Assembly (NCBI RefSeq): GCF_040412425.1
Contig: NC_089788.1
Coordinates: 66,143,720 to 66,207,719 of the forward strand
DNA: 64,000 nt
Source: Macrobrachium rosenbergii
Taxonomy: Eukaryota > Arthropoda > Malacostraca > Decapoda > Palaemonidae
Direction: 5' to 3'
Position numbers and translations under genes: made by a program. Below, piece by piece: positions 21,164 through 45,181 of the stretch. The notes below the pieces were generated by a model. That model saw only the letters and a program-made list of their open reading frames with translations, was not told where the DNA came from and did not search any database. Position 1 is the stretch's first letter, and every line of letters begins with the position of its first letter.

Positions 21164-22228
21164 CTAGAAAATAAGAATCAGGAACACTACTTATACAAAA
21201 GAATAATACAGTGTAAAACATGGCTACTACATAAAGCAAACAGTAAGACAACTTTTTATTTCACAGTGTATAACAAATTGTATAAGATGCTTCTATTTCA
21301 TAAACTAAAACATAATAGCTACCAATTATTTTAAAAATTTAATTTTTCTGCAGACTAATGAAATATCAAATTCAATACAAAGAAAAATGAAATGTTTTTG
21401 AACAAAATTTATTTCATTACAAACTCATCAGTTTACATGAGTCTATCTGTGCAGTCAGCACTCCAAGCAATGCACCATATGAGAGAGAAAAAAAAAAAAG
21501 AGCAATCTCTCATTACCAACACATCAGGAACCTAAGCACTAACAATAATTGTCGGTCATTCCACAGGGTTGTCTAGATTTTCCACAAGACTAGAGGGAAT
21601 GGAATGAGGGCCATCTTTGTAAAGTGATGGATTTATACCAAAAGCATAAATACTACAAATTTTTTAAGTAATTTGTATTTTTCCAAACATACAAACCTGA
21701 GAGTCTTTACATAGGGATTATGCTTGCAAAGATGAGCTGGAACAGCCATTAACTTTCAAGCAAGGTCGTTAGCTACCGATGGTAGGGGGAAGCCCCGACC
21801 ACTCGTCAGTCTGCACTCCACTTTGCCTTTCAGCCCAGGTATCAGAATGAGGGGTGGCTGAGGTGGGCCATGAATGTACAGATCTTCAGGTCTGTTTGTT
21901 AGGAAAAATACAAGTTACTTTAAAAATCTGCAGTTTGTTCCTACACAAATAAAAACCTTCGGGCTTTACATAGATTTACCCTTTGGAGGGTGGATTCTGG
22001 GTAAATCTTGAACCTACTGGATGTTCAACTGTCGGACTTCTGGACCCTTTGAATTAATGAGTTTGTGTCATTATTTAAAAAAGGTGTCGGAGACAATAAA
22101 AGGACAGTAAAAGCAATAGGTTTGTTTTATTGTCAGCCCCTCTCTCCCCTTGCTAGAGAGAGGGAGAGGACTTGGATCTAATAATCTATTCCAGATTATA
22201 GATGGGGTACTCAGTTATGTATGCTCAC

Positions 22229-23064
22229 CTACATGACACGCCTGACCAGCATGTGACAGTTCGCCACTTGCCTCTCTTCTATGAGAGAGGAAAGGTGAAA
22301 AAAAGACAAGGGAGGAGGCAAGTCCCTCACTTGCATTCTCTCTTTTGCTACCGTACACCTTAGGCGAGATACTACCTGTACCTCTAGGGGAGCCGGGTGA
22401 GTCACACAACTTGATGAGCAGGACCCAAGGAAAAACGTGTCCAAGGGCCTGTGGGCAATGTCCCGAAGGCAGAAGGACTTGAGTGTGGTTTGTATAGACC
22501 ACACTTCTGCCCTTAATACATGTAGAACTGACAGGAATAGACCAGTGTCCCTAACCTCGTGAGCCCCTACTAGGATTGTCTCGTGAAGCCAGAAAGAAAC
22601 TGTGCCCTTGGACACTTCTTTCTTGATAGAGACAGTGTACTAAAAAAGTCATTGACACTCAGGCCTGATATGTCAAGTCCTCTAAAATAGTACTGCAGTA
22701 CTCTAACTGGACACAGTAGTATCCCGTCCCGATCACTACCAAAATGTCCTCTAGGGAAGCGATCGAAAAGGACTCAAATCTGGTGTCAGGGACTGACGGA
22801 CTCAGAGTCTTCACTACAAATTCCGGGACAAACTCGAGCATGATCAGTCCCCATCCCCTTAAGTGCTAGCATCGAAGGTCATGTAACTCGCCAACTCTCT
22901 TTGCCGATGCCAGGCAAGCAAGAACACAGTCTTGAGGGTCAGCTCCCTGTCCAACAACTCTTGTAACGGAGGGAAAGACTGTTCAAAGCTTCTCAACAGC
23001 ATGTACATCTCCCACGAGGAAGGGAGATCGATGCCCTTCAAGTGAAGGTCTTGGCCAAGGGCAG
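22229..23064 (-). pseudogene. Tyrosine recombinase, C-terminal part (element A)
   Basis: The minus strand reads LKGIDLPSSWEMYMLLRSF and RELTLKTVFLLA at 22859-23064. After frameshifts it reads GAHEVRD at about 22550, which holds the His and second Arg of the HxxR active-site motif. A degraded tail to 22229 follows. The N-terminal part lies 10.8 kb away at 33824-34057 because of the piggyBac insertion. The gene is dead. Confidence 0.65.
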
Positions 23065-23085
23065 TTAACCCTTAAACGCCTCTTG
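23065..23085. repeat. TTAA target site and left piggyBac terminus
   Basis: TTAA (23065-23068) is followed by CCCTTAAACGCC. The inverted counterpart at 33808-33823 is GCGTTAAGGGG-TTAA. A TTAA duplication and CCC-starting ends are the piggyBac signature. Confidence 0.85.
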
Positions 23086-23370
23086 GACGTTTTAAATGTC
23101 GTCCAAAATTGTCTGTCAATGCCGAGTGGACGTTGCAAACGTCGACTGAAAATGAAATTTTTATGATAAGTCAACGCTTCACTTATACTTACCCGGTAGT
23201 TACATATAGCCGCCGCCTTTGACGCCACGGCAGTATTCAAAATTTCTCGCAAGTAGCGCTATCGCTAGTGGGCAGATCCTCTACCCTCGCCTCTATCGGG
23301 TATCGAACCGCCCCAAGAACACGCTATGTTTCTGCCCAACTGCCCAGGTGAGGAGGAGGAGAAAGAGATT

Positions 23371-23460
23371 ATGTAACTACCGGGTAAGTATAAGTGAAAC
23401 GTTATTTTATCATAAAAATTTCATTTTCACTTATACAACTTACCCGGTAGTTACATATAG
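23371..23460. repeat. DIRS internal complementary region (element 4)
   Basis: Reads 'ctaccgggtaagtataagtg' followed by 'tcataaaaatttcattttcacttatacaacttacccggtag'. The first half is the complement of the left terminus and the second half the complement of the right terminus. This is the DIRS-specific template for circle closure. Confidence 0.8.
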
Positions 23461-23869
23461 CTGATTGGCACCTTGAGGAGGTGGGGCACTGGCAGCTAAT
23501 AAAATTCTTGGAATTATCTACTTGCAACAAGTTAGACATAGGTTCTCACTTTTAAAGGTAGCTGACTCAGTGGTTACTGCTTGTAGTCTGTTGCCTTTAT
23601 ATTGTGCCGAGGATATAAGGGATCCGGGTGTGTCGACACAATAAAACAGTACCTATTCGGGAGAAATATGGCTGCACGACAAGTCTGATGCCCTGATCAG
23701 GCGCAGTACAACAAACAACAACAAAACGAGATCACCTAACATTACCATAAACCAATAGCAAAGATTAAAACTGGAAGATACTAACACATCATGTATCTCC
23801 AGGCAACCTTTCAAAACAACAACCCCAACACCAAGGTGAAAATGTTATTAAGGAGCGGACTCCCTTTTC

Positions 23870-24905
23870 ACCCCCCAACACCGCGGTCAGTCGCGAATAA
23901 AGGCCCCAGCTGCATTGCACTCTTCAAAACAGTTTGCACGCTCCACTAAATAATGCGATGCAAACACTGACTTGCATCTCCAAAAAGGTGGACTTAACTC
24001 AAGTCCTTCACAGATGTTTGCTAAAGGCTACAGCTCTAAAACCGCCTAATCTGCAGGCGCTTACCTTAAGAATACTCATCTCCGAAGTCAGCACACTGCT
24101 CATGAGCTTTATCATCAGGCTTCTCAAAAAGAAAGAAAGGGCATTCTAGAGAGAGGCCTAGAAGGATTCTAACCGAGCACCAGAGGTGGTCATTGTAACT
24201 CCTGGAGCTTCGCTCTCTGAACGAACCTGAGAGCTCTCACAGGGCAGAGGTACTCCGGTTCTTCGACCACCAATTGGGAAGGTCCTTAATTTCAATCCCT
24301 TGGCCAAGGTCTAGACGGGTCTTCGTTCTTGGCTAAGAAACCAAGAGTAGACATACATACTGCCTTCCCCTTAGCAAAGCCTACTCTTTTGTCAATCGCA
24401 TGTAGCTCACTTACTCTCCTGGCCGTAGCCAGAGCTACCAAAAAAAGAGTCTTTTTCGTGAGATCCTTCAAGGAGATGTTCGCCATCGGTTCAAAGGACT
24501 GAGACCGTAACCATCTCAGCACTACGCCAAGATTCCACGCCACTGGTCTCTTCTCTGGTCTCTCTTTGACGTATTAAATGATCTAATCAGATCTGAAAGC
24601 AATCTTGACTCAAAGACATCAAGACCTCATGTCGTAAAGACCGGTTAACATGGCTCTATACCCTTTAATGGTAGGTACAGCAAGCTTTTTCTCTCTGTGG
24701 AGGAACAAGAGAAAATCGCCATCTATAGACGCCGAAGAAGAAGACACGCTTCTTCGACACCAGGACCTAAACTGTGTCCACTTCGCCTGGTAAACATTGT
24801 CGAGGATTCTCTTCTTGGCTTCGCGATAGCTTCCAAGCCCTCTGAAAAGCCTCTTTCGATGAGTCTCCTGACAGTCTGCAGGCGACAAGATGAAGAGCTG
24901 GACAA
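23870..24905 (-). pseudogene. DIRS tyrosine recombinase (element 4), broken
   Basis: N-domain words are LDNVYQAKWTQFRSWC and PTIKGYRAMLTGLYDMRS (24619-24888). After a frame break comes MAWNLGVVLRWL, then LTKKTLFLVALATARRVSEL with the first catalytic Arg, then FLAKNEDPSRPWPRD (24292-24543). The C-terminal part is degraded: where other copies read AHEVRAVA this one reads SACRLGGFRAVA, so the HxxR His is lost. Several stops follow. It overlaps the methyltransferase frame upstream, as in all DIRS elements here. Confidence 0.75.
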
Positions 24906-26480
24906 GTTTTGGGTGGAACCTCTGGAAAGTGTGGCTGTCTATAAATCTGGTCTCTCTGGCAGAAGTCTCGGAAGTCTGACAGTAGGTTTAGAAGGTCCGT
25001 GGGAACCACCCCTGGACGGCCAGAATGGAGCCACCAGAGTCATCCTTACGCTTCGATGGCTTGAGAACTTCGGAGATTACTTGCCGCAGGGATCTGAACG
25101 GGGAAAGGCATACAGGTCCAGGTCCTAATTCAGTCCATGAACATTGCATCCACTTAAAACCGCTTTGTTGTCTGGAACTGAGAGCAGTAAAGGGGTAGCC
25201 GAAGCTGCTTGTCGGGTTGCAAAGAGATCTATGAGCCGGACGCCCCCATATCTTCCAAAGCTCCTCGCAGAAACTAGGGATGTAAAGTCCACTGCTGATA
25301 CAGGACCTGCCTCTTTCTGCTGAGAAGGTCCGCTGCTACATTTTTTCTCCCCTTGAATGAATCTCGTTACTAGTCTGCCAACCCGATCTCTCCGGTCCAA
25401 ACTAGAAGCTCCCTCGAGGTCTCGTAGAGGGACCACGAGTGAGTGCCCCCCTGTTTCCGAATGTATGCCAGAGCGGTCGTGTTGTCCGCCTGGACCAAGA
25501 CGCATTTGCCTTCCACTTCTTTTTGAAAGGCTAACAGGGCTAAGTGAACCGCTTTAGTTCCTTTCTCATTGATGTGCCAGTTTCTCTTCTCTTGCCACTG
25601 GTCCCGAACTTCTTTTGTCCCCATAGTCGCCCTCAGCCCTTGTCCGAGGCGGGCCGGAAAAAGAGTTAGGTCTGGGTTCGAAGCTGAAGAGGAAGTCCTT
25701 GTGACAGCCTTCCTTCTGACCTCCGAATCAACGGAGGCACTCCTCTCTTTATCTTTTCCAAATGGCTAATGTGAAGGAGTCCGAACTGTTTCCTGGGCCG
25801 CTCTTGCAGGTAAAACTGCAGTGGTCTCAGGGTTTGCCGCCCAGTTTTGCAAAACTTCTCCACTGAAGTTAAGGTTCCACTTGAGGCTCATCCATTCGCT
25901 CGAACAAATCTTCCTCTGCAGAAAGTCGCCGATCTTTCTGCAGGTATGAGGCTATCCGCTGGTTGGACAGAAAAGTCGGAAAGCCTGAGAGTCCAGACTC
26001 ACTCCCAAATAGACAATCTGCTGACTGGGAGTAAGGGCAAGACTTTCTCGATAATGAGGCCTAGAGACTTCAAGTGACTGAAGAGCCCTTTTGATAGGTC
26101 CTCCAAACAGTCTCAAGCAGCTTTGAGCAGCCAATCGCCGAGGTACATGGAAACCTCGACTCCTTCCCAGGTGAAGATGTCTGGCTACTGACAACAGGAT
26201 CCTTGTGAAACTTGCGGGCTGCCTGATGACCAAGCAGAGTGGAACGAACTGATAAACCTGTCCAAGACCTAACCTCAGGAACTTCCTTGAAGCTGGGTGT
26301 ATCGACGTGAAAAATAAGCGCCGCCTTGGAGGTCTATCAAAACCATCCAATCCCCTCTGATGTAAAAGACCAAGACCGACTGAGTTGTTCCATGGAGAAT
26401 TTTGTCTCTGAACCAAGACATTCAACGACTCACGCCCAGGACGTGGTCTCCATCCCCTGATGCTTTCGTGAATCCAGGAA
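24640..26480 (-). pseudogene. DIRS RT-RNase H-methyltransferase (element 4), broken
   Basis: The RT remnant at 25952-26425 contains YLGVSLDSQAFR, SIHPASRKFLRLG and a damaged CLVIRQPASFTR. The YLDD box is replaced by a frame-shifted stretch. RNase H is clear at 25370-25624 (NWHINEKGTKAVHLALLAF, then VLVQADNTTALAYIRKQGG). The methyltransferase remnant is at 24650-25200. Many frameshifts make the copy inactive. Confidence 0.7.
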
Positions 26481-26749
26481 CAGACGCATTGTAGAAACCT
26501 GGAGAAAGAGGGGCATGAAGCTGTTCTATCGCCTCCTTCTCCAGCATGGCTTGACTTCTGAGCCAGGCGCTTTGAAGGCTCATGGAGCTGTTACACACCC
26601 AGAGGCTGCACTTAGGCGACTGAGCAAGATAGCATCTTTAAAACTTGATCAGCCCAAGGGTCTGCCGAGATCTGTTGCCACTCTTGCCAGAACCTTGCAG
26701 TCTGGCTCCTACAGCTGAATGGAGACAAAAGGTTCATTTCTTCCTCTGG

Positions 26750-28760
26750 GGCCGCGAGGTTCTAGGCGGGCTTTGCCTTTTCCTCATCTCGCCAAACACG
26801 CTTTAGAGGGTCTTCCTTTATACTGTCCATAATGTTAGATCTAAACATCGCGCACAGAAGCGTGTAGAAAGCACAGGTCTCTTTCGCTTTCGGCAGATCA
26901 AGTACAAAAGATCCTGGGTTGACTTCTGGGCTAAAGCCTGGGAATTGCAGCAACTAATCTCTATGAAATAGATGAGCCTTGTTTAAAGGAGAAACAAGAG
27001 AGCCGACTTCTGGCTTGAAGAAACACCTTTTGCTAGGAAGGGAGCACCAAAGGCCTCTTTTTGAGAACCCTGGTCAGAAATAAAGAGGCCAGTTCTACTG
27101 CACCGTCGCAGATGCCCTCATCCATGCAACTGCACTACTCCTACCACATCAATCCAAGAGCTCGAAGGAAGATTAAATCCTACTCTTCCTGGCTAAGGCC
27201 GCACCGCCCAGTCCAGGAAGCTCACAATTTCAAGAGTCCAAATACGCCTTGAAAACTTGGTCCAGTTCGAGGACGTAAAGAAGACCTTCAGAGAATTGGG
27301 CGCGGTCCCCATTGGCATCCATGAGACTGGAGAAGTCCCCTGTGCGAGGCAGCCACACCAGGAAAACATTTCCCCAGTCTCATACCAACTCCGTTACGGA
27401 AGGAACGAACAGGAGGGGGCATTGAAGACGCTTCTTTCCACTTCCTTCTGCCAGCCAAGCATCCATCTTCTTAAGGCCACGAGACGACAGGACAAGTTTG
27501 GGAAGTCCTAAGAAGAAACAGAAGCCTTGTCCTCTGTACTGGGACCCAGGAGACGGAGGAGCCGCAGGCGGTAGAACGAATCAGGGAAGTTCTCAATAAA
27601 AGAACTTCAAGAGCTTGTAGGGAAGAGAGGAGTTGGGCGGAGACTTCTCCTCCCTTACACTGCCCTTCTAAGCCCGAGAGGAGTTCAGAAATTGGGGATA
27701 AGTCCAGCTGGACAACATCATCATCCAAGTCTCCTTGAACTGAGACTTGAGTTACACGAAAGGGGGCTGCGGTACAGTGACATATTCTTTGCTGTGTCAC
27801 CGAAAGAGTTTGGAGCCTGTTGAGGAGCCATCGGAGGGCGCCAAAGGAGGCGCGAGTTGATACAGCACCGGTTGTGGCGCCTAAAGGCGGAGCCGCTGCT
27901 ACCACAACGACAGGAGGCGCCAATGAAGGCGTACGCGCGCTACCGGCGCCGGCAGACACAGTCGCCGAGGCGAGCGGGCTGGTATCACAGGAGGCGCCAA
28001 AGAGGCGCACCGGGCACAGCAGCCAAAAGGTGGCGCCAACGTGGAGGCTAAAGCGGCGGCGCTACCGCGACAGAACGGGAGTTGAGGTGGCGCCGCTGGC
28101 ATCGAGAGGAGCCAAAGAAGAGACTTGATTTGTGACAAAAGTTGTAAAATCGAGTCCAAACGGGCGTAATCTGGCCAATCACAAGCTGTTGAGGTTCATC
28201 GAACGCTGGAGCAGGCGCCACAGGAACAGGAGCTACAGGAGTCGCTGGCGCCCAAAGGAGCAGGCCTCTCAGATGTAATCGCTCGATAGGAGGATCCGCC
28301 GATAACGCATCGAGACGAGTCCGACGAAGAAAAAGCTCTCCTGCTCCTGCCTAAAAGCTACAGTGGAGGGGAAGTGATCCTCCAGAAGAGCCTTCTTCTT
28401 AGGAATCTTCAATGGAGAAAGCAGACGAGACCTCTTCAGTGTCTAGAAGAGTCACAAAACGCCTAACCTCTAGGCGGGAGGAACTCCAACTGATCTCACT
28501 GACACTCTCCGCCCTCACCTGGTGTAGGAGGGCCAGCAGCCTGTAAAGCGGCAACAGGACTGCTTGAGGGGCACCACTGAGCAGGTCCCACTCACCTCTT
28601 TTTCTCAAGCTCGGGCATGCCTTTCCCTGAACCTGGGATACCTGACAGGGGCCTAGACCTGAGCGTGAATGGGTCGAGAAGCTACCTCCCTCCACAACAC
28701 TTACACAAGGCACAACACTCAAGATTATCACTGCGTGCCTCACTAATCGGGCTGCAAATT
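26750..28760 (-). pseudogene. DIRS gag-like region with GGCGCC-rich repeats (element 4)
   Basis: The region between the right terminal repeat and RT in element order. It has a weak Cys-rich N-terminus near 28700, a central block at 27830-28110 dense in the palindrome GGCGCC, and a C-terminal piece at 26762-26953 with SNIMDSIKEDPLKRVW. The order matches intact gag at 56292-58898. No frame longer than about 130 codons survives on the coding strand with recognisable gag words. Confidence 0.5.
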
Positions 28761-29018
28761 GTCCCCATTTTCTGCATGGAAGACATAAACGCATAAGTTC
28801 GAATTGTTGAGAAAAACTACCAGCAGCAGAACCGTATTACCGGTTCGCACGGCAAAAACTAATGGCGTGTTCTTGGGGACGGTTCCCGATACCCCGATAG
28901 AGGGCGGGGTAGAGGGATCACCTTTTGTAACGATAGCGCTAGCGAAATTTGAATACTGCCGTGACGTCAAAGACGACAGCTATATGTAACTACCGGGTAA
29001 GTTGTATAAGTGAAAATG

Positions 29019-29286
29019 CTTTTTTTAAATATTCGCGGAAAAATAATTATAGGCCTAGTTTGCGGAAGATTTCAAATCCCGCGCCTCAGCGGATGCTGGG
29101 AGTTCACGGATCCAGCTGTTGTTTTGTTTCTGAGCGTCACCCAGACGCGCATGCGCGAATTTCCCCCATCTCGCATCAGAGAGCATCAGAGTAGCGCCTT
29201 GCGGGAGCGATATTTTGATGCAGACGTGTTTTGTTGAACTTTTGCGAGTGTTAGTGTATTCATGCTGCAACAGAACGTTTGCAGAG
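29019..29286 (+). other. piggyBac 5' leader
   Basis: Sequence between the nested DIRS and the transposase ATG at 29287. It is GC-rich with no other frame, and probably holds the promoter and 5' UTR of the transposase. I saw no recognisable TATA box. Confidence 0.4.
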
Positions 29287-31441
29287 ATGTCGCAAAGGCG
29301 TCAGGAGCGTGAAAGGCGCACATTGCCTGTCGGAAGTGAGCGTGTGAGGCGAGTTTTCGACTTGGATGCTGGAGAAGGACCCAGCAACCAGAGTGACCCA
29401 GCTTCTCAGCAGCGTGTTGTTCGGCCACGTGTGACCTATGGCGACCAAGGACCACATCCCGTTCCTTTACGACCCTAGGAAGCATCGGGGTGTCCTGAGG
29501 GGCATCCGAAAACATTTGGGAGGCCTCCAACAGAAGGACATTGATGAGTACTTGTTGGAGCTCGATCGAGAGCAGGTCGAAAGTCCTGATTTCGGTGGTA
29601 GTTGATCATCTAGCGATGGCGACATAACGCCTGGCGTCAGCGATGACGAATATTTGCCACCAATGTCCGTATCGGGATCCTCAGCAGGAAAGTGAATTAG
29701 AGTTTAGTGGGTTTAGTGCCTACGAGGAGAAAGTGAGTTGGAGGAGGAAGAGGATGACCTCGATTGTGGCTGGTGGGGACGAAACAGAAAGTGATGGGGA
29801 AAGTGAAGGAGACGGCCCAGCTGGGAGTGTGAGAGTGCGAAGGCGTGCCCGCACGCGTCTGGCGCGCGCGAGCACAAACCCGTAGAAGGTCGCAATGTCG
29901 CGGCAGCTCGGTTGAAGGCCGTTCGTCCGAAAGTGATGAGGGGTGGTCGGAGGACCCCACCCCACCTAACATGCACCCATTCACGGCAGTACCTGGACTG
30001 ACCGTCCCTGTGCCTCTCACGGCACTGGGGTTCATTCAGCTTTTCCTGACGCTGGAATTGCTTGAATTCCTGGTTGCGGAGACGGTAGATTACGCTCGGT
30101 ACTGCCGTGAGAATTGCGGACGACGTTGTTGCACACCGCTGGCGGGCTGCAACCTCGGACATGGCGCACTTTTTGGGGCTCCACATATTCTTTGGGATGA
30201 TGCCTGCTGCTGACGTCAGGCAATATTGAGGCGGAATTTTTTTTTTTAAGTGCGCCTAATGTGGCGGCATTATGCCCCGTGATAGTTTCCTGGCGTTGGA
30301 CAGGTATTTCAACGCCTTCAACCGAAGGGCTATACCCGAATAACCCCGACCACCTCATCTTAGTCCGCCCAGTGTTGGAGTTCATTCGTGAACGGTGCCA
30401 GACTCTCGTGGTTCCTTCAAGAACCTTTCTTTGGATGAGGGTATGATGCCATACAAAGGGCGTCTAAGTATCAAAGTGTACAACCCGAAGAAGCCAAAGA
30501 AGTATGGTGTAAAGTTATTTTTTATTAAGGAAGCCAACACTGGATACGTCGTGGACTTCTTGGTGTATTCTGGGGTCTTCTCCATGCTGCATGACGCTGT
30601 CTTCGGTCTTGTGAATCGTTTCCGTAACCAGGGATACCACCTGTTTATGGATAATTATTATAACTCGGTATCCCTGGCCCAGGAACTGTATGAAGCAGGT
30701 GTGCACGTCAGTGGTACCCTTCGGTTGGTGCGTGGGGCCCGAATGTCCTCAAGAGGTTTGCTAGCCACCCGCAACATCTTGCAAGAGGAGAGACAGAGTG
30801 GCGGCGGAAGGAGATGTCTTCGTCATCTGTTGGGAGGGTCCGACTCGTGCCCATGATTACGACGAGTCATGAGCCCATCCAAGAGGAGATCACCCAGCGG
30901 AAGAAGACACGCCGGCAGGGCTGAGTTACATATGAGGAGTTTCGTGTCCAGCGCCCTACTGTCATCGAGCACTACAACAGGCACATGGGAGAGTTGATCT
31001 CTTTGATCAACTCATCCAGTATTATCCCTTTGCCAGGAGAACCAGGAGGTGGACACAGAAGCTCCTCAAATACCTCCTTCAGTTGGCCCTCCAGAATGCC
31101 TACATCATTTACTGTGGGTATAATTCGGACGCTCGGAGGTTGACCCATATCCAGTTTCTTGAAGTGGCTGGGAATGCCCTCATCAACCGATCCGGAGGAG
31201 TGGCCTTCCAACGGCGCCCCCCTGCCCGAGCTCCAGCTCTGCCCGAGAGGAAAGGTCAGATGTCGTGAGATACCCCGACATCATAATTCCTCATCCTGCC
31301 GGCGCCGCCCCTGCTGCCGCTGACCTTGATGATGACGCTGCCCCTGAAGATGCCGCTGACCTTGATGATGACGCCGCCCCTGAAGATTCTGCATTGAATT
31401 TATTTTTAGTTTTATATTTACGTGTGAGTATTCTGCATTGA
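29287..31441 (+). pseudogene. piggyBac transposase pseudogene
   Basis: Starts MSQRRQERERRTL. Domains in order, in changing frames: the N-terminal piggyBac segment HPFTAVPGLTVPVP with LELLEFLVAET (29972-30090), SLDEGMMPYKGRL with catalytic Asp 1 (about 30428), GYHLFMDNYYNSVSLA with Asp 2 (about 30650), HYNRHMG followed by VDLFDQLIQYYPF with Asp 3 (about 30975-31025), and ARRLTHIQFLEVAGNALI. It ends with a duplicated acidic tail (AADLDDDAAPED twice). All three Asp survive, but at least five frameshifts separate them. No PGBD4-type Cys-rich tail is present. Confidence 0.88.
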
Positions 31442-31611
31442 ATTTATTTTTAGTTTTATATTTATTACAAGTTTTCATATATCTGTATTCATTGCTGTTT
31501 TGTATAATTTCGTTTTATGGAAAAACAAAGTTTTTCACAACCATTCCTTTTAGTTATGTTTTCGTAACAAAGTAAAAAACAATATAATTTATATGTGTTT
31601 ATGTATGAATG

Positions 31612-31732
<121 letters not shown>

Positions 31733-31779
31733 TTTTTACTTGGGTCTCTTTTGGGTAAGCAAAAAATCTCATATTCTGG

Positions 31780-33720
31780 TGATATTCAATCCTTTACCTT
31801 CATTTTGCAACAAACGGAAAGTCTCTAGCACAATATTTAGATTTTTGGTGAATTTAAAAAAAAAAAAAATTTCCCCCGCTCCACGCGAGCGGACTCCGCT
31901 GAAAATCCTGTCATTTCTTGCGTCAGTTTGCCGTAATTTTTTCGCCATTTCATATTATTCATTACATAAAGTGTTATACATCAAAATGTGCGCAATTTCA
32001 TGTAGAATACAACAAAAATAAATCATTCCTTTAGCTCTTCACAGTTTTTTAATATTTTACTTGAAATCACGATAACTGACAAAATTTTAACATTCGGTCA
32101 ACTTTGACTCGACCGAAATGATCGAAAAATGCATCCGTAAGCCATAATTATTACATTCGAGTAACAATCAATCATTTACCTTCATTTTGCAACAAATGGA
32201 AAGTCTCTAGCACAATATTTAGACTTTTGGTGAATTTTTGGAAAAAATAATTTCCTCTGCTCCGCGCGCGCGGAATCCGCTGAAAATCGTGGCATTTCTT
32301 GCGTCAGCTTGCCGTAATTTTTTCGCCATTTCATATTATTTCTTACATAAAGTGTTATACATCAAAATGTGTGCAATTTCATGTAGAATACAACAAAAAA
32401 TAAATCATTCCTTTAGCTCTTCACAGTTTTTAAATATTTACATCGAAATAACGATAAATAGAAAAAATCAACCTTCGGTCAACTTTGACTCAACCGAAAT
32501 GATCAAAAAACGCATCCATAAGCCATAATTATTACATTCGAGTAACAATCAATCATTTACCTTCATTCTGCAACAAACGGAAAGTCTCTAGCACAATATT
32601 TAGATTTTTGGTGAATTTTAAAAAAAAAAAATTTTCCTTCGCTCCGCGCGTGCGGACTCCACTGAAAATCGTGGCATTTCTTGCGTCTGCTTGCCGTAAT
32701 TTTTTCGCCGTTTCATATTATTCGTTACATAAAGTGTTATACATCAAAATGTGCGCAATTTCATGTAGAATACAACAAAAAATAAATCATTCCTTTAGCT
32801 CTTCACAGTTTTTTAATATCTTCGCCGAAATCACGATAACTGACAAAATTTTAACGTTCGGTCAACTTTGATTTCGACCCGAAATGATCGGAAAAACGCA
32901 TTTGTAAGCCATAATTATTACATTCGAGTAACAATCAATTACTTACCTTCATTTTGCAACAAACGCAAAGTCTCTAGCACAATATTTAGATTTTTGGTGA
33001 ATTTTTGAAAAAATAATTTCCTCCGCTCTGCGCATGGACTCCGCTGAAAATCCTGTCATTTCTTGCGTCAGTTTGCCGTAATTTTTTCGCCCGTTTCATA
33101 TTATTCGTTACATACGATTGTTATACATCAAAATGTGCGCAATTTCATGTAGAATACAACAAAAAATAAAACATTCCTTTAGCTCTTCACAGTTTTTAAA
33201 TATTTACATCGAAATAACGATAAACAGAAAAAATCAACCTTGGTCAACTTTAACTTTCGATCGAAATGGTTCAAAATGCAATTGTAAGCTAAAAAACTTA
33301 CAGTCTAGTAATATTCAATCAATTTCCTTCATTTTGGCACAACTGGAAAGTCTCTAGCACAATATTTTGATTTTTGGTGAATTTTGAAAAACTTTTTTTA
33401 CGTCGGCGTTACGAATTCATGCATCATTTTGTGATAATATTTTCTCTGTGTTGCTTTAATCGTTTTACAATCTGTTGTATACCAAAATCATAGCAATTTA
33501 GTGTACAATACAACTAAAAAAATAACTCATTAGCTTTAACCGTTTTTTTCCTTACAGCGATTTGTATACAATTATATACGAGTTTTTTTTTCTCTGTCAT
33601 ATATTCCAATATTTATATATGATAATGATATATTTTTCATTTCTGATGATTGCATACTAAACTTCAGGCAAAAGAAAAAAAGGAGCCAAAAATGAACTCT
33701 TAATCTTGAAAACTAAGCGC
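31780..33720. repeat. Tandem satellite-like array, period about 382 bp
   Basis: The word 'tcaaaatgtg' plus context recurs at 31981, 32362, 32744 and 33128 (spacings 381, 382, 384). A fifth degenerate unit occurs near 33483. Each unit carries 'tgccgtaattttttcgcc', 'tttcatattatt', 'aatttcatgtagaatacaa' and 'tagctcttcacagttttt'. The array lies wholly inside the piggyBac, between transposase and right terminus. Short ORFs in it repeat the same peptide and are not genes. Confidence 0.92.
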
Positions 33721-33807
33721 TGTGATTTTTGAAAAAAATTTTTTCCGCTTGGCGCTACCTCTCGGAGGCCGCCGGCATACGGGAGACGTTTTTGAAAATA
33801 GGGCTTC

Positions 33808-33823
33808 AGCGTTAAGGGGTTAA
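33808..33823. repeat. Right piggyBac terminus and TTAA target site
   Basis: AGCGTTAAGGGG followed by TTAA, inverted relative to 23065-23080. Confidence 0.85.
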
Positions 33824-34640
33824 ACATATGGGATATTCAACTGCCCTTTGTAACCCCAAAAAAGCTGAGAGAGAGGGAAGCTTCTCTCGGTGAAGAAGCA
33901 AAGCTCCTAGCAGAGACCCATCGATGACAACAACCACAGGAAATGGTAGCAAGAGACACTGGTGATACCTCTCTATGTGCGGCTGGCATAGCAGGTTGTG
34001 CCGAGGGAGAATCTCTCTCGGTGCTTTGGAAGCAGAACTAGCAGGTATGCATACCACTCAACATGTAGCCACTTGGGAGCCACCATGGTCATCCTGAGAT
34101 TTGGGGTGATCATGACTCTGTTGATCTCCCAACGAATCAGACAAAATGAAAGAAAGGTGCAGGCCTTGAAATTGTCCCATGGCTGTTGGAAGGTGTCTTC
34201 TAGAACTGCCCATGGTTCTGGAATGATAGAACGGAACACTGGCAGCTTCTGTTGTGTCGGGTTGCAAAGAGATCTATCGTTGGGAGGTCTCAAAGATTGG
34301 ATAATCTTTTGCAATGTCTGGGTGTAGGGCCATGTCCCTATCACCTGACCTTGGTGACTGAGCTTGTCTGCCATAATGTTCCGGTTCCCTGGAATGTACC
34401 TGGCTGACAGCTGTATTGAGTGTACGTCGTGCACTTGCACAGCCAACATGTGGAGCTGAAGGGAAACCAGTCCTCCCACCCCCACTGCTCGTTGATGTAT
34501 GCCACTACCGCGGTATTGTTGCTCATCCAACACCACAGCATGCCCCACCACTCAATCCTGAAACTCTTGTAGGGCTAAAATGCTGCCTTGAGTTTCAGAA
34601 TATTGATGTGGAAGTGTCTGTCTTACCAGTTCCACACACC
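33824..34640 (-). pseudogene. Recombinase N-part, methyltransferase and RNase H (element A)
   Basis: The minus-strand frames give RNase H with SNNTAVVAYINEQWG (34341-34541) and QLSARYIPGNRNIMADKLSH. Next is the methyltransferase-like block LPVFRSIIPEPWAVLEDTF, with MVAPKWLHVEWYAYLL. Close to the piggyBac is the recombinase N-part (HREKLPSLS) ending at the TTAA. Frameshifted and inactive. Confidence 0.65.
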
Positions 34641-35700
34641 TAAAACCAGCAACTCTTCCAGGTGTGCACCCTATCCCTCAGTCGATGCATCCAAAAACAG
34701 AAGCATCTCAGGAAGGGGAGTGCTAAATGGCACTAAACACTATTATGAGGTTCCTGTCGTCTAGCCACCAGGCTAGGTCTTTCCTTACTTCCTCTGAGAG
34801 ATGAATCAGGAAGAACTGGGTTTCTTGTCGGTGACCAAAACCCCTTTATTCTCCACTGAAGGGAATGAAAGTGAAGCAGCCCATGTGGGACCAGCTTCTC
34901 CAAGGACGACCGGCAATAGAGAACGACTGATCACTGCCGAGCTCGTTGCTCCTGTCGAGACAGGAATAACTGCACTGCCTCTCTAAACTTGCTGATATGC
35001 AAGTCTAAGGGGGGACTCTGGCTGCTGCTGTATCTATCAGCCTGCCCAGATACAGTACCGTACTCTACCCTCTGCTTGGGTGTGAGATCAGACTCCTCGA
35101 AATTGATTAGGACTGCCAGGTCCTAGAGCAACTGGGGCTCACCGGGTCTAAGCAATCCTCGAGATACCTCAAGAGATATATCCTGTGTGAATGGCCCCAA
35201 CTGTGGCTCACTAGGACTAAGCAATTGTTGAGATATCTCAAAAGATGAATCCTGTGTGAATTGCCCCAAGCCAATACCAGGGTGTACACTAAGGTGAACA
35301 CCTGGGGAGGGGTTGAGAGCCCTAAACAAAGTGCTCTGAACTGGAACACCGTCTCCCCAAGGGTAAATAGGAGGTACTTGTGAGATCATTGGTGGATGAG
35401 TATTCAAAAATACCCATCCTTAAGTCCACCAAAGCATGAATTGGACTCCCTGATGGTATTGAGTACTGACTGTACCATTTCCAACTTGAACCGACTCGGG
35501 TGAACAAATCGGTTTAAGAGAGAAAGATCTATGACAGGTCTCTAGCCACCAGCCATCTTCTCTACCAGAAAAAGATTATTGTAAAACCCCAGAGACCGAT
35601 ATGTCACAACTAATATCTGTATGTTGATTTTGTCGTGAATGACATCTCAGATCCTAGTTTGGAAGGAGAGAAGGGCTTTTGTATAGAAAAAGACTGCATG
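34640..35700 (-). pseudogene. DIRS-like reverse transcriptase remnant (element A)
   Basis: The minus strand at 35107-35349 reads MFQFRALCLGLSTPPQVFTL. It is followed by two copies of a stretch ending LLRYL-NN and LLRYL-ED, positions where DIRS RTs have YLDD. The duplicated unit is 69 bp (starts at 35130 and 35199) and in frame. Upstream, at 35322-35507, is ALVDLRMGIFEYS, matching LDLQDAYFHIPIH. The catalytic Asp pair is lost in both repeats. The element becomes unrecognisable above about 35700. Confidence 0.65.
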
Positions 35701-36100
35701 AAGAAATTCCAAAGTAATCTCTGCCCTCAGCTTGGATGTCATAGCTAAAATAAACTCCGTGGTAATTCCCAAATTGTGTGCTGATTTTTGTGATTGTCTT
35801 GGATTATTCTGAGATGAAGTACTGAGAAAGATAAGGAACTATTTTGGGACATATGCCAGAGTTGGAGATTTGTTGATAATATTTTGACTATTGGTAGTAT
35901 AAGTTAGGCTAAGTTAGGTATGTGAAGATTGTTAGGATAAACTTTATTGGTAAGTATGAAATAAGTTAGGTTAAGTACTGAAAGATGATAATTGATAAAC
36001 TGTGGCAAATGTAAATAAAAGTAGGATAAGGTTAATAAATTAGGATAGGTAAAAAGAGTTTTCTTTAACCTCGGAATCTGTTCCCAGTTGCGTCAAAGAA
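35700..36100. other. No gene seen
   Basis: AT-rich sequence with a few scattered TTAGG words, not a tandem array. Confidence 0.35.
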
Positions 36101-37260
36101 AAAAACCCAACAGAGTGAATGCCAGAATGCTCTGAACTCATTTTCTCTCTTGCTGGGCTGGGCCTGGGTCCATAGATCGGGGGGGGGCTTACTGGCCTGG
36201 GAAGGTGAATTCCCAGGACCGGTACTGGTGCACCGGGGATACATGGAACCCTGGGTAGCAGTTGCTCCATGCCAGTAGACAGATCGCGAGTTGCAGTACT
36301 GGTAGTACTGCAAACGAGAGATCCTGCAGCCTTTTCTGTGGAAGAAGGCTGGCTGTCAGAAGCCCTATGGGACTTCTTACGGCTGGGAGAGGCAGCCTTG
36401 TCATTCCTTTGTCCTTCCTCCACTTGCTGGCTTCACAAGAAAAAGGGAGGAGGTGACAGAACACGGCGAAGATGAAGATGAAGACGAAGACGAAGACGAC
36501 AATGATTCTTGAATCGTCTTCTTTGACATCTGCCGGTTGTGGCAGGCCTTTGGACAGCAGGGTGTGGAGACGGATGTCACCAAGGGAAGACGATGTAAAG
36601 GGTAACCCAAGTGGGCACACTACCTGAGGCATGATCAAATGTATCACTGACGTAGTGATGGCCCTCAAACTGGTAGACACTGTAACTGTAGACTGCAGTA
36701 CTGTAGGTACCATAGACACAATTACAGTGGCACCAGTACTGGAGATCTTTGGAAGCCTTTAAGTGGTAGATCAAACCCTCAACACTTGACTCCCCCGGAA
36801 GGCCTTAACCCGACTTGTTTTTTCAAATGTTGTGGAGCCCAAGGGGCTTAGGGCATCCTTAGGCCGCCCGGGGGAGTCAAGTGTTGAGCTGATCTACCAC
36901 TTGAAGGCCTCCAAAGACCTTCCAGTACTGCTGCCACCATAACTGTGACTACAGCACCTACAGTACTGCCGTCTACAATTACAGTGTCTACCAGTTTGAG
37001 GGCCATCACTAAGTCAGTGATATGTTATTTTCATAATAAAATAAATTTTTGAACATACTTACCTGGTAGTTATATATATAGCTTAAGTCCCTGACGTCAC
37101 GGCAGAATTTCAAAAACTCGCGGCAATCGCCGATCGGGTAGTCAGGTGGTCCACCTGTGCACCCTCTACCCAGGTAACTGGAACCATTCTACATATTCCT
37201 CAGATCTTCCATGCCCCTAGTCTCTAGAGGGGAGGAGGGTGGGAATTTAATTATATATAA

Positions 37261-37345
37261 CTACCAGGTACGTATGTTCAAAAATTTATTTTATTATGAA
37301 AATAACATTTTCAAACATCTAACTGACCTGGTAGTTATATATATA
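37261..37345. repeat. DIRS internal complementary region (element 1)
   Basis: 'gttcaaaaatttattttattatgaaaataac' is the complement of the left terminus. It runs directly into 'attttcaaacatctaactgacctggtag', the complement of the right terminus. The joint lies at about 37306. Confidence 0.88.
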
Positions 37346-37760
37346 GCTGATTGACACACCTTTGGTGGAAGGTCAGAGACAGCTAACATCGTTGGAATTG
37401 AAATACTAAAAATTTGCAAAACCAACTAAAGGTTCCTACCTGTTAAGGAAGCTGACTTCATTGTTTTCCTGCCTCATTATGTCTGCATTCCTTAAGAGAT
37501 CCAGCGATCCACCTAGGGGGCTGAAAAATCTCTAGGGGCTGTCAACCGGTGTCTAACCTCTATGTGACTAGACCTCCTTTTAATACCCTTATTCTGGGCG
37601 CTACCAAGGAACAAAAGACCACCTAACTAAGAGAACTGAAGTAAATGATATTATTTAAAAACTGTCTGCTAATGCTAATGATTGCGGAAGGCTGCGTCCA
37701 GCCTTCGCAAACAACCAAAAACAACATCTTAGTTCCAAGGAAGAAAAAAGGGTATTGGGT

Positions 37761-38860
37761 TATGGGATTGTAGCGGTAGCCCTTTCTCTCACTACTGAAT
37801 TTGCAGCTACAAACGGACCCAGCGTGTAGCAGTCTTCATAAAAAGTCTGTACCTGTTTAAGGTAATGTGAGGCAAAAACAGACTTGCTCCTCCAGAAGGT
37901 CGTATCCAAGATACTCTGGAGGGACCTATTTTGTTTAAAAGCTACAGAGGTTGCTACCGCTCTGACTTAGTGTGCTTTAACTTTCAGAATTTTGTGGTCT
38001 GCTTCCCTACATCCTGAATGAGCTTCTTTTATTAATTGTCTGATAAAAAAGGACAGAGCATTCTTAGACATTTGTAAAGAGGGTTTTTTGACAGAGCACC
38101 AAAGCCCTTCTGAGTCCCCTCGTAAGTCTTTTGTCCTTTCTAGATAATATTTTAGAGCTCTTACTGGGCACAGAGTTCTTTCTATTTCCTCACCTGTGAC
38201 ATCCGTCAGGTTCGGAATCTCAAACGCTTTGGGCCAAGGTTGAGATGGACGTTCATTTTTTACCAGAAAATCTAGTCGAAGTGAGCAAACTGCTTTGCCT
38301 TGTCTAAAACCTATAGCTTTGTTAAAAGCATGAATCTCACTTACTTGTTTTGCAGTGGCTAAACTGACTAGAAAAAGGGTTTTCATGGTGAGATCTTTTA
38401 AGGATGCCTTTTGTAAAGGTTCGAATCTATCACTCGTGAGGAACCTCAGGACCACGTCTAGGTTCCAAGCCGGTGATTCTTGTACCCTCTCCTTAGATGT
38501 ATCAAAGGATCTGAGAAGGTCTTGGAGATCCCTATTGTTAGACAGGTCTAAGTTCCTGTGTCTAAAGACCGATGCTAACATACTTCTATACCCTTTAATG
38601 GTTGAAATTGAAAATTTAAGGTTCTTCCTAAGATGAAGAAGGAAGTTTGCTATCTGAGTCACAGAGGTACTGGTAGAGGATACAGAGTTGTTCTTGCACC
38701 ATCCTCTAAAAATTTCCCACTTGGACTGGTATACCTTAATGGTGGAAGACCTCCTTGCTCTTGCGATCGCGCTAGCTGCCTCCTTCGAAAAGCCTCTAGC
38801 TCTTGCGAGTTTTTCGATAGTCTGAAGGCAGTCATGTGTAGCGCTTGGAGGTTTTGGCAA
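37761..38860 (-). pseudogene. DIRS tyrosine recombinase, one nonsense codon (element 1)
   Basis: Reads MPKPPSATHDCLQTIEKLA, then IKVYQSKWEIFRGWC, then STIKGYRSMLASVF (SAM-like N-domain), then LTMKTLFLVSLATAKQVSEI. The core ends with KVKAH, stop, VRAVATSVAF, then TTFWRSKSVFASHYL with the nucleophile Tyr. The stop TAA (37967-37969) replaces the Glu of HEVR, between the active-site His and Arg. Downstream the frame is open for about 67 codons to TAA at 37761-37763. At the first catalytic Arg position this copy has Gln (AKQVSE where others have AKRISE or ARRVSE). The start overlaps the methyltransferase frame by about 200 bp. Confidence 0.9.
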
Positions 38861-39645
38861 TACTTATCCAAGTGGGGTTGTTTGAGTAGATCTACTCTTA
38901 GCGGAAGTTTTCTCGGGGTGTCCACTATCCATTCCAGTACCTCTGTGAACCAATCCCTTGTGGGCCAGTAAGGAGCGACTAGGGTCATTCTGGTGCCCTC
39001 GTGCGACACGAACTTCTGCAATACTTTGTGGATTATTTTGAAAGGTGGGAATGCATAAACGTCCAAGTTTGACCAGTCCATGAGGAACGCGTCTATGTAA
39101 GCAGCCTCTGGATCCGGAACGGGAGAACAATAAGTCTCTATCCTTTTCGTCCGTGCTGTGGCGAAAAGGTCTATGCACGGTCGCCCCCAAATCAGCCACA
39201 TGCTCTTGCAGACGTCCTGATGTAGCATCCATTCTGTGGACAGGACTTGATCTTTCCTGCTCAGCATGTCTGCTCTTACATTTCTCTCCCCCTGAATAAA
39301 GCGGGTTAGTAGTATCACATTCCTCTCCTTCGCCCAGAGAAGAAGTTCTCTTGTTGTCTCGTATAGAGATTTGGAGTGAGTGCCGCCTTGTTTGCTGGTG
39401 TAGGCCAGCGCTGTAGTGTTGTTGGAGTTGACCTGCACCACTTTGTTTTTTACTACCTGTTCGTATTCTTTGAGAGCTAGAAGGATCGCTGTTAGTTCCC
39501 TCTGATTGATATGCCAAGACTCTTGCTGTCTGGTCCAAGAGCCCGAGACTTCATTGATTCCCAGAGTCGCTTCCCATCCTGAGTCCAATGCGTCGGAGAA
39601 CAACACTAGGTCTGGGTTCCTCTGTTTTAGGGAAAGGCCCCCTTG
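38659..39645 (-). pseudogene. DIRS RNase H and methyltransferase-like domain (element 1)
   Basis: The RNase H part reads DLVLFSDALDSGWEATLG, SWHINQRELTAILLAL, VNSNNTTALAYTSKQGG and RFIQGERNVRADMLSR. At the DNTT position the Asp is Asn (SNNTT against SDNTT in other copies). The methyltransferase-like part follows at once with WGRPCIDLFATARTK, CSPVPDPEAAYIDAF, DVYAFPPFKII and MTLVAPYWPTRDWF. It corresponds to the Dam-like domain reported for DIRS elements, with AFPPF in the place of a D/NPPY motif. The frame is open for the whole domain pair to the stop at 38659. A preceding 1-nt shift separates it from RT. Confidence 0.85.
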
Positions 39646-40410
39646 CAGCTGATGGGGTCGTTCCACCATTTTAGATACTGCCTTACAGGTTTCGAGATGG
39701 GGATGCACTCCGTCTCCAATTCTTTTTCCTTGTCCCAGTTCCGATTGAGATGGAATTGTAACGGGCGAAGATTCAGTCTCCCCAAGGAGACAAACTGCTC
39801 TAGAGAGGAAAGGGTCCCCAGCAGACTCATCCATTCCCTCACCGAGCATGTTCGTTTCCTTAAGAAGCTCTGAATCTTTTCTAAGGCTTGTTCCGTCCTT
39901 GATAACGATGGAAAAGCCCGAAAAGTCTGACTCTGAATCCTCATCCCCAGGTATAGAATCTCTTGGGATTTTTCCTTGTTTATAAGTAGGCCCAGTTCTT
40001 CTGATAACTGGATTGTCGTCTGAAGATCCTTCAGGCAGCGTGTGTGGGAAGGGGCTCTGAGAAGCCAGTCGTCTAGGTATAAGGAGATTCTGATGCCTCT
40101 CGTGTGCAACATTCCTGCTACATTGTTCATTAACCTCGTGAAAACCTGAGGAGCGGTGCTTAGGCCGAAACAAAGAGCTCGAAACTGGAACACTTCTTCC
40201 TCGTGAACGAATCTCAGATATCTCTTGGAGCTCGGGTGGATAGGGATGTGGAAATACGCATCCTGCAGATCCAATGATACCATCCAGTCATGCTGTCTGA
40301 CTGCTGCTAGGACAGATTTCGTCGTTTCCATCGTAAATTTTGTCTTTTGAATAAAAACGTTGAGAGCACTCACGTCCAGCACTGGTCTCCATCCCCGAGT
40401 TCTTGGGAAC
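39627..40410 (-). pseudogene. DIRS reverse transcriptase palm and thumb (element 1)
   Basis: An open frame of about 250 codons: LDVSALNVFIQKTKFTMET, MVSLDLQDAYFHIPIH (first Asp), FQFRALCFGLSTAPQVFTRL, then RISLYLDDWLLRA (YLDD catalytic pair), LLINKEKSQEILYLGM and MSLLGTLSSLEQFV. All RT catalytic residues are intact. The fingers lie in a different frame upstream, and RNase H returns to that upstream frame. The two shifts, at a C-run on the plus strand at 40393-40396 and at 39638-39642, cancel each other. Confidence 0.88.
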
Positions 40411-41502
40411 CAGGAATAAGCGATTGTAAAATCCTGGCGAATCCACGTCTTGAACTCTTTCTATGGCCTTCTTTTGCAACAGAAGAGATATTTGCTGTTG
40501 CAGAGCCTCCGCCTTCGTTTTCTTCTTGTATTTGGCCGAAAGGTCTATCGGTCTTGATGCTAGAGGGGGCTTCCTGAGGAAAGGGATCTTGTACCCCTCT
40601 TTGATCAATTGGATGGACCATGGATCCGATCCTCTCCTCTCCCACACTTGCCAGAAGTTGTTCAGTCTGGCTCCTACTGCTGTCTGAAGGAGACTCCCAT
40701 CAGACTCTGTGTCTTCCTTGTCTGTAGCCTCTCTTCGTTGGTCTTCTCCCAGCAGATCTTGAGTTTCCTCTACTGAGGGTTTTGAAACGAAAGGCTGAGA
40801 CACAGGAGCTTCTCCTCTATTCTTCCGTGCGACGAAGCTCGTTGGTAGCACTTTTTTAGCTGTTTTCGTAATCAAGTCCTGCGTGGCCTTTTGTGATAAG
40901 GCCGCTGTGACTTCTTTTACCAGCTCTTGAGGGAACAGGTGAGCAGAAAGAGGAGCATAAAGGCGTTCTGATTTTTGAATAGTAGTTACTCCATTGGAAA
41001 GAAAAGAGCAAAGATGTGCCCTTTTCTTTAAGATCCCTGCAGAGAAAAGTGCCGCCAGCTCGTTGGCACCATCTCTGAGAGCCTTATCCATGCAAGCCAT
41101 TATATGTACAAGATCCTCCGTGTCAACATTCTTGCTGGTGTCCATCTTCTTACCCAAGGCTCCCAGGGTCCAGTCAAGGAAATTAAATACCTCAAAGGCC
41201 CTAAAGATTCCTTTGAGAAGGTGGTCCATTTCCGACGCGGACCAAAACACCTTTGACTTCACCATAGCTGTGCGGCGGGAAGCGTCCACTAGGCTCGAGA
41301 CACCCCCCTGGGAAGAAGAGGGAACTCCTAGGCCAAGAGATTCTCCAGTCTCGTACCAAACGCTAGATCTAGAAGCTAGTCTGGCTGGGGGAAAGGAGAA
41401 CACCGTCCGGCCTAGATCTTTCTTAGTATTCATCCACACTTCCATCAATTTTAAAGCCCGTTTGGATGAGCGAGACATAACCATTTTCGTAAAGAAGCTC
41501 AT
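40288..41502 (-). pseudogene. DIRS gag C-terminus continuing into RT fingers (element 1)
   Basis: The first part is homologous to the gag C-terminus of element 2: SVWYETGESLGLGVPSSSQG against NWYNTGECFSLGVSASSQG, and FEVFNFLDWTLGALGKK against FEVISFLDWAFGALGRK. It then runs on in frame, without the RGG-type tail, into RT fingers with ARLNNFWQVWERRGSDPW, IKEGYKIPFLRKPPL and SPGFYNRLFLVPKNSG. The fusion may reflect a deletion of the gag end. It starts 16 nt past a TAA in the same frame. Confidence 0.75.
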
Positions 41503-41517
41503 CGACGAACGTCTTTC

Positions 41518-43552
41518 TTAAAGTAAATTCCGATGGAGGAGAACGAGAGAAGCTGGAATGAAGTTATCAGGAAAAAGTTCCGTGAAAACTTTCATTAGTC
41601 TCTTTAAGTCCGAAGAGGGATGTTGGTCTTTTCGCTCTTCCTCGTCCGATATGTCATCCACCGGATTGTCTAGTGAGTGAGGCAGATCGTCTTCCACATC
41701 ATCCGACTGCTGCCCTGTTATCGGGTCGGTAAAGTCCTCCTTTGTATATTGGAGTTCAGTTTCATGACGCTTGAAGTCCTGGCGTCCGTCATCTTGACGT
41801 TTGGCGTCCTGGCGTCCTGTTAGAGCATATTGACGTCCAGTTTCTTGACACCTGGTGTCTTGGAGTCTATCTTCTAAGAGATTAACTTCCAGGCGTACAT
41901 TCTCATGGCGCTTGACGTCCTGGCGTCCAGATTCTTGACGCCTGGCGTCCTGGAGACCAATCTCTAGACGCCTGGAGTCTTGGAGTCTCTCCTCTAAGAA
42001 ATCAACTTCTTGGCGTCCAGTTTCATGACGCTTGGCGTCTTGGCGCCGAACCCCTTGACGCCTGGTGTCTTGGCGTCTGTCTTCCTGCAGATCAACGTCT
42101 TTGCGTCCAGCCAGATGACGTTTGGATCCTTGTTGTCCAACTCCTTGTGTGTCCTGGAGTCCAGCCTTCTGTCGTTCACTGTCCCGCCAAACCTTGAGGT
42201 CACTTGAGAACTGGCCGCCTGTGCGACATCGGTCAAAAGCTTCCTCAGGTTGACGTACAGCGATCGGAACTTCTTGAGTAGGACCAATCTTCTTTCTGTG
42301 TTCGCTGTACCGCCGATCCTTGAAGTCACTTGAGAACTGGCCGCCTGTGCGACATCTGTCCCAAGTATCTTCCGGGTGGCATACAGCAATCGGAGGACGA
42401 ACCGTATCCTTCTTTCCTGCAAGCTGTAAGACTTGAACTAGGGAAGAGAGCTTCTGCTGCATATCTTTAATCAGTAGTAATTGTGGAGCTTCCTGCTGCT
42501 GGGGACAGACCGGGGAAGCCGCAACTTCATCTATCAACTCTTCCTCAACGTCCCGTAAGGATTGTGGAGTGTTCTGGGGACGAGTACCAATCTGAGGGAA
42601 GGGGAGGGGCATGTACAGAGGGTAGTAATGCGTCCACCTTCTTCCTGTCAGGCGTCCTGATCGGACCTGCCAGTTTACGTCTACTCTTGGCGGGAGAGCT
42701 GCCTTCGGAGTTGGAGGGAAAGCGCTCCGGACTGCTCCAGTGGCTACACCCTGGAGCCTGACTTGTCTCTCTACGACGACCTTCAATAGAGGGAAGTTTT
42801 CTCTTGAGAGGTCTCGATTCTGACTTAAGACGCCAACCCCGTCTGGGGACTGCGTCGTCCGAAGACGAAGAACACAACTTAACCTCGCCTTTTCTATGGC
42901 AAGGGTGAGCGTCCTGGGAAGCGTCAACAGGTACGCTCGAGGGGACGACCGCTCGGGGACTAAAGCCTCTCGCCTCCCTTCGTCTTTCGACATTCCTTCT
43001 CACAGGGGTTGGTGAGCTTGGAAGAGGTCCAGGACTAGGAGCGCGACAGGACCGAGCGGCCGCACCCTCCACTGCACTTGCACTAATCTTTTCACTTTTT
43101 AGATCTCTCATATCAGACCATAACTTCTCCCTGTCTTCTGCAAGGGATTCTACCCGTTTTCCCAGGGTTTGAATGGCCGCCATCATATCCTGAAGAGTTG
43201 GTTCTTTATTACCTGTATCAGAAGGGGAGTTAGAAATTACTGCTACTGCGGAAGGATCAATTGGATTGTTAGAATGGGGCAAGGAAATATCTAACCCCTG
43301 GCTGTCCCTTGAAGAGTGAGATATAGAACTCTTGGCTCTTCTGAGTCGGTCTCTTTCAAGTTTCCTCACATATCGGTTGTAATCTAACCATTCTCTTTCA
43401 GACAGACCCAAACATTCATCACATCTATTGTCCAATTCACAACTCTTACCTCTACATTTGACACATATTTGATGGGGATCCAAAGAGGCTTTAGCAAGTC
43501 TAGTCTTACATCCCCTCACACACATTCTTACACTAGATGAAGAGTCAGACAT
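41518..43552 (-). pseudogene. DIRS gag, N-terminal and central part (element 1)
   Basis: The chosen start is MSDSSSSVRMCVRGCKTRL at 43552, because intact gag of element 2 begins MSDTGSS at the same place. A Cys-rich motif follows (ICVKCRGKSCELDNRCDEC), then a charged SR/SP-rich region. Near 42600 the frame shifts (PPLP-SDW against PFPQIGTRPQN) into a second open stretch. That stretch contains the repeats RRQDAKRHETGRQ and an acidic segment, ending at TAA 41518-41520. The continuation at 41502 is in the same frame, so this TAA is a nonsense codon within ancestral gag. Confidence 0.8.
41745..42140 (-). repeat. Coding minisatellite in gag of element 1
   Basis: Units of about 39-42 bp with 'tggcgtcc' and 'gacgcctggcgtc' encode R/Q/D/H-rich repeats such as RRQDAKRHETGRQ, ERLQDSRRLEIG and DRLQDTRCQETGRQ. 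An adjoining pair of longer repeats (DRCRTGGQFSSDLK) lies at 42190-42370. Confidence 0.85.

Positions 43553-44821: not shown

Positions 44822-44858
<37 letters not shown>

Positions 44859-45093: not shown

Positions 45094-45181
<88 letters not shown>

Follow-up and report, generated by a model that had tools for sequence, protein, structure and literature searches.

The window analysed here is a 64,000-nucleotide stretch of the genome of the prawn Macrobrachium rosenbergii (C48:66143720-66207719, from a genome of 3.18 Gb in 78 contigs), and it contains mobile elements that lie one within another. We regard it as very probable that a piggyBac transposon lies within the recombinase gene of an old DIRS1-like element, here called A, and that a DIRS1-like element of another family (the inner DIRS) lies within this piggyBac; the same reading includes a polar model for the junctions of the inner family and further inserts in A. 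The features of the nest are as follows, numbered from the first letter of the window.

21650..23064, minus strand: A, the part that is 3' in sense; triplet ATA at 21650-21652, then CTACAAATTTTTTAAG; includes part of the recombinase gene and is collinear with the A copies c37 and c16.
~21874-21973, minus strand: internal complementary region of A (inverted pair 21652-21712/21874-21934).
23065..33823, plus strand: piggyBac-type transposon, recognised by its ends, DDE_Tnp_1_7 matches, paired ends elsewhere and empty sites; TTAA at 23065-23068 and 33820-33823.
23149..29015, minus strand: inner DIRS, 5867 bp, with AAA at both ends (23149-23151, 29013-29015); frames broken and ~0.44 kb missing.
23370..23463, minus strand: internal complementary region of the inner DIRS, made up of the left-end complement (23370-23427) and the right-end complement (23425-23463), which overlap at AAA.
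29134..31268, plus strand: broken piggyBac transposase region, with DDE_Tnp_1_7 at 30392-30856 (E 1.4e-22) and 30936-31268 (E 6.3e-8).
31786..33391, strand not applicable: 382-bp tandem repeat of 4.2 copies within the piggyBac, from repeat analysis.
33824..36805, minus strand: A continued, the reverse transcriptase (RT)/RNase H region, running past 35700; 36113-36589 and 36600-36805 match c16, and 36629-36805 matches c37.

The initial annotation had described a DIRS/piggyBac/DIRS nest of three levels and this nest is real, both the element types and their nesting being supported by domains and by empty sites found elsewhere in this genome. As proposed there, a TTAA can be read on both sides of the piggyBac, the sequence running GGGCAG-TTAA-CCC at 23065 and GGGG-TTAA-ACATATGG at 33820, and the inverted ends (TTAACCCTTAAACGC and TTAACCCCTTAACGC) match at 13 of 15 positions. 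The recombinase frame of A on the minus strand is indeed open for 147 codons across the joint when one TTAA is kept (AVEYPICL|TALGQDLHLKGID). Empty sites are a stronger proof of the nest than this open frame. The suggested alignment of the joined flanks with other copies of A in this genome was run on 38 loci fetched for both flanks, two of which (L001 and L009) are the window itself, and 15 of the 36 others align across the joint with at least 20 nucleotides on each side (L007 with a 16-nucleotide gap there). None of the 36 showed a piggyBac at the joint; A copies holding the sequence between the two TTAAs had been named as a case that would speak against the nest. Queries from the piggyBac (23065-23148, 29019-31600 and 33401-33823) matched none of these loci but those of the window itself, except that the right part also matched L024 at its far edge. 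The site reads TTGA in 9 of the 15 empty relatives and TTAA in 2 (L025 and L030), with 4 other or deleted, suggesting that the target TTAA probably arose when a G became an A or else was one that a minor lineage had too; the element has TTAA on both sides where it is present and a single TTAA-like site where it is absent. In c37 a recombinase query matched before the joint and again after it (residues 40-76 and 149-252), which places the piggyBac inside the recombinase gene, and A has inverted terminal repeats (ITRs), an internal complementary region and RT, RNase H and recombinase, the last of these found in c37 and not in the window's joined frame. In L003 an unrelated 638-bp insert lies within 10 nucleotides of the site, between two copies of CATATGAG; it was considered as a second piggyBac and rejected, being flanked by this 8-bp repeat, which may be of the hAT type.

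Several points weigh against this reading: 21 of the 36 A loci gave no alignment across the joint (L003 with its other insert, the rest diverged or partial), the joined A frame of the window itself was not matched by the recombinase query at E 0.01, and the junctions of the nest were read from the assembled sequence. The junctions might be wrong joins of repeats made during assembly, as repeats with many relatives crowd the region (1649, 1799 and 2863 first-look candidates), but the outer joints are at TTAA/TTAA and the inner ones at the AAA ends typical of the inner family, base-exact when compared to the empty sites, which would not be expected of a misjoin, and we find this explanation very hard to credit. 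A true nest therefore remains the preferred reading, and nests of this sort are ordinary for a repeat-rich decapod genome.

The piggyBac is ~4.9 kb without the inner DIRS and 10.8 kb as a composite with it. Its DDE_Tnp_1_7 score was 80.9 bits (cut-off 22.4), the DDE_Tnp_1_7 pieces lie in separate frames, showing the transposase to be broken, and the frames at 29134-29478 and 29833-30213 gave no Pfam match. Like the piggyBac superfamily in general (PF13843, DDE_Tnp_1_7) it has TTAA flanks, short inverted ends and a DDE_Tnp_1_7 transposase, while unlike it the prawn copy has a broken transposase and encloses both a tandem array of 382-bp units and a DIRS. The segment to the right of the inner DIRS gave 1799 first-look candidates and the right end of the piggyBac 2863, with 39 other scored places each (95-98% and 93-96% identical respectively), and at 9 other places the two piggyBac ends share a strand and lie 5.2-15.1 kb from each other. 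The piggyBac or DIRS copies at C21:59124070-59139166, C48:60298020-60308520 and C50:34952680-34965119, with ends 10-15 kb apart, are probably further nests.

At the next level, TGAAAATG was uninterrupted at the site of the inner DIRS in all 29 other piggyBac loci fetched, and the left tip of the piggyBac aligned from its first base in 27 of them (from the second base in L064 and the 28th in L054). Once the shared TGAAAATG had been resolved by the other copies, the limits of the inner DIRS moved from the 23148-29018 first given to 23149-29015. This element had been called complete. It is nested as claimed, its ITRs agree at 80% of 170 columns and its internal complementary region is double (left end 58 bp, 93%; right end 39 bp, 100%), but it is not complete, as its frames are broken and ~0.44 kb is missing near 28794/28795, a segment present in all 39 other scored copies (between query positions 235 and 236). 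Paired copies of the family are mostly ~6.4 kb (one on C50 is 12.4 kb) compared to 5.87 kb here. RT, RNase H and tyrosine recombinase are all present in broken frames, as seen by tblastn with the proteins of a second DIRS that lies further along A (recombinase 2e-41, RNase H part 8.8e-36, RT 3.5e-17); one frame gave a weak match to RT_RNaseH (E 0.013, below the cut-off) and no Pfam match to a methyltransferase was found in the frames scanned. Among other copies of the inner family (L104/L109 on C56, L119/L118 on C4 and L090/L070 on C10), two have flanks that match A-family loci and one is flanked by DNA near piggyBac ends and the 382-bp repeat, suggesting that similar nests recur.

The order of events had been given as fixed. 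By nesting A is the oldest (its best other copies are at most 89% identical over a 206-nucleotide query), and it stands that A was there before the piggyBac landed and that this piggyBac copy preceded the inner DIRS. The entry of the inner DIRS after that landing does not stand as fixed, because piggyBac moves by cut and paste and the inner DIRS may have entered before the piggyBac reached A. The inner DIRS would then have entered the piggyBac elsewhere and the 10.8-kb composite have moved into A, a route that agrees with the excision and reinsertion known for piggyBac elements, with the intact outer ends and TTAA, and with an inner DIRS that seems to have diverged further from its relatives than the piggyBac flank has. 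On the other side, a search of the assembly allowing up to 3 mismatches gave the left piggyBac|DIRS junction once (control 0) with no sibling composite seen, and the 29 other piggyBac loci are without the inner DIRS; these do not settle the matter, since a donor loses the element on excision, and we consider the route unlikely. Private changes relative to 20 relatives tell against our main reading, numbering 21/412 in the left end of the inner DIRS and 4/500 in the piggyBac flank, which if taken as age is the reverse of the prediction from nesting. The inner DIRS differences are clustered (at 23170-23366 and 23544-23550, with none in 23367-23543, relative to the relatives' commonest bases) and so the number was not taken as age. 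The left repeat at 23170-23366 differs in blocks from the 20 relatives and from the element's own right repeat; on sequence comparison it looks like a patch that may have come from another lineage, and dating by private changes was rejected because the clustered changes resemble a foreign left repeat and not age.

No target duplication accompanies the inner DIRS, which is inserted at a single AAA of the piggyBac; the ends of its family were read on the plus strand. Right ends were AAA in 38 of 38 (28 and 10 more). Left ends in a first set of 23 were AAA in 17, AAT in 4, AAC in 1 and GAA in 1, and at 15 predicted places 8 more were found (AAA 5, AAT 3), the other 7 having no recognisable end and being dropped. 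Across the 31 copies with both ends, the left triplet is not AAA in 9 and the right triplet is AAA without exception (0/31 otherwise), so that in sense orientation the 5' triplet is always TTT and the 3' triplet is other than TTT in 9/31. Uninterrupted relatives of the target were present among the fetched DNA for 6/23 and 2/8 pairs, 3 of these 8 having a non-AAA left triplet: the AAC case reads AAC in its one empty locus, the first AAT case reads AAT in 22 of 29 (GAT 5, ATT 1, AAC 1) and the other AAT case reads AAT in both of its two. For the five AAA cases the relatives are mostly AAA in four, and one reads AAT in 4/7 (an A-run with gaps); relatives of left-AAA cases can read AAG or AAT, which makes empty relatives imperfect witnesses and is a point against the reading of the triplets as the target's own. 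A target need not be identical to the junction, and the triplet that varies is in every case the one at the sense 3' end.

These are insertions at a 3-bp core without target duplication, in which core identity is not strict and a shift of 1-2 nucleotides is possible in A-runs, and the unit of the family, ATG...GTGAAA, follows a target AAN or near-AAN. The targets are biased to A before the triplet (14/23, p 0.005) and to A, T, A after it (15/28 each, p ~0.02). A longer identity with the target (TGAAAATG, 8 nucleotides here) was rejected as a rule, since the matching G stands before the triplet at only 5/23 left ends and A, T, G would be expected after it, where the mild preference found is A, T, A. 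At the second DIRS in A the left junction shows GAT and the right one AAA. The duplication in which it lies has another arm, which reads GTGAT-ACATT, and c37 reads GTGGT-ACATT.

In the published account, DIRS elements insert without target duplication, by recombining with a target that has the same sequence as the 3-bp junction (PMC3266345), and DIRS1-like elements are widespread in decapods, as the title of PMC2685390 states. The prawn elements resemble the DIRS1-like elements described in these two papers in their ITRs, two internal complementary regions with a 3-bp overlap, RT/RNase H and tyrosine recombinase, lack of target duplication and NTT termini, and differ from those of PMC3266345 in that 9/31 left triplets of the prawn family are not AAA, always at the sense 3' end. 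Table 3 of PMC3266345, with 28 elements, lists 10 with unequal end triplets; AmDIRS1 and BfDIRS2 were left out of our polarity count as a 2-base junction is given for them, and of the other 8, 7 have the same polarity (the start is the junction complement and the end is not) while AcasDIRS1 is the reverse.

DIRS insertion thus looks polar. The element's tyrosine recombinase may insert it at a short core, and the 3' junction would keep the target's triplet. As a tentative proposal, which we would put somewhat short of an even chance, the polar exchange is probably of a single strand, with the end of a folded single-stranded complementary DNA (cDNA) joining directly after the target AAN, giving a 3' triplet from the target and a 5' triplet from the element. 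Integron cassettes have a single-stranded intermediate, and the outcome here is likened to theirs; a single-stranded intermediate is also said to be named in the title of a 2020 paper. Such an intermediate would give a fixed 5' triplet and a target-derived 3' triplet, unlike a two-strand exchange with unbiased repair, by which the target triplet should be found on the right in some mismatched cases; it was seen there in 0/9 (31 pairs). The chances seem evenly balanced that the polarity comes instead from biased repair after two-strand exchange with a double-stranded circle, or from a preference for AAN targets beside a fixed cut: circular DIRS-1 cDNA has been reported (PMC5633606), directional repair could yield a constant outcome, and the A before the triplet and the A, T, A after it are as a target preference would have them. 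Polarity, and hence the choice between this circle and the single-stranded intermediate that we propose, is testable by counting junctions in genomes with recent DIRS copies. Because DIRS insertions make no target duplication they are otherwise difficult to recognise, and repeats with many uninterrupted relatives supply exact empty sites for them. The polarity of the triplets, unlike the nest itself, bears on an open question, and among the open-licence papers listed on nested DIRS/piggyBac elements, DIRS junctions and empty sites, no title or abstract opening deals with this nest or with triplet polarity.

DIRS-1 of Dictyostelium discoideum is reported to target its own existing copies preferentially (PMC5633606). 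The prawn elements are like it in that two inner-family copies lie in DNA matching A-family loci and the second DIRS lies within A, and unlike it in that other prawn targets are piggyBac-linked or unassigned, the likeness being one of occurrences.

The right limit first assigned to A, 35700, was ruled out by the longer collinear copies c37 and c16, which show that A reaches 46776. Its ends are at 21650 and 46776, a footprint of 25.1 kb, with both copies collinear to 46777-46778; together they align in order to 21648-23066, 33819-35611, 36113-36589 (c16 only), 36600-36805, 44069-44410, 44439-44510 and 46537-46778. A carries a second, separate series of insertions outside the earlier coordinates, and its remaining features are as follows.

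36803..37021, plus strand: first part of an inverted duplication of A, from comparison with A copies.
37022..43875, minus strand: second DIRS inside A (D37), 6.85 kb; RVT_1 E 1.7e-22, RNase H and recombinase frames; GAT left, AAA right.
43876..44041, plus strand: rest of the inverted duplication (complement of ~36486-36642), from self-comparison.
44069..44510, minus strand: A continued, from collinearity with other copies.
44511..46536, strand not applicable: further ~2-kb insert in A, with a palindrome at ~44648-45348 and a 251-bp tandem repeat at 45905-46404.
46537..46776, minus strand: right terminus of A (5' end in sense), partly the inverse of 21689-21777, ending in AAA.

A would have separately gained the inverted duplication, then the second DIRS within that duplication, plus the further insert. 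In the inverted duplication (36486-37021 and 43876-44041) the second DIRS lies in the second arm and A resumes near the turning point, a layout as after a template switch. The phage-integrase-like N-terminal domain of the second DIRS fell just under the cut-off (25.1 of 27 bits), and its proteins matched the right part of A on the minus strand (RT E 8.8e-22, RNase H part 2e-12). A-like pieces and ends like those of the second DIRS recur at 50251-52472 and 52945-59468 of the window, where another nest is likely, and elsewhere in the genome A matches crowd in short stretches of few contigs (C34:336000-649000, also C53, C55 and C74). When proteins were searched using a frame of the second DIRS, the M. 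rosenbergii protein P0097 was among the matches listed. A protein from a metagenome-assembled genome labelled 'Propionibacteriaceae' (P0001), whose contig is 1455 bp long, shares 56% identity with the DIRS frame and is probably animal DNA in a bacterial bin.

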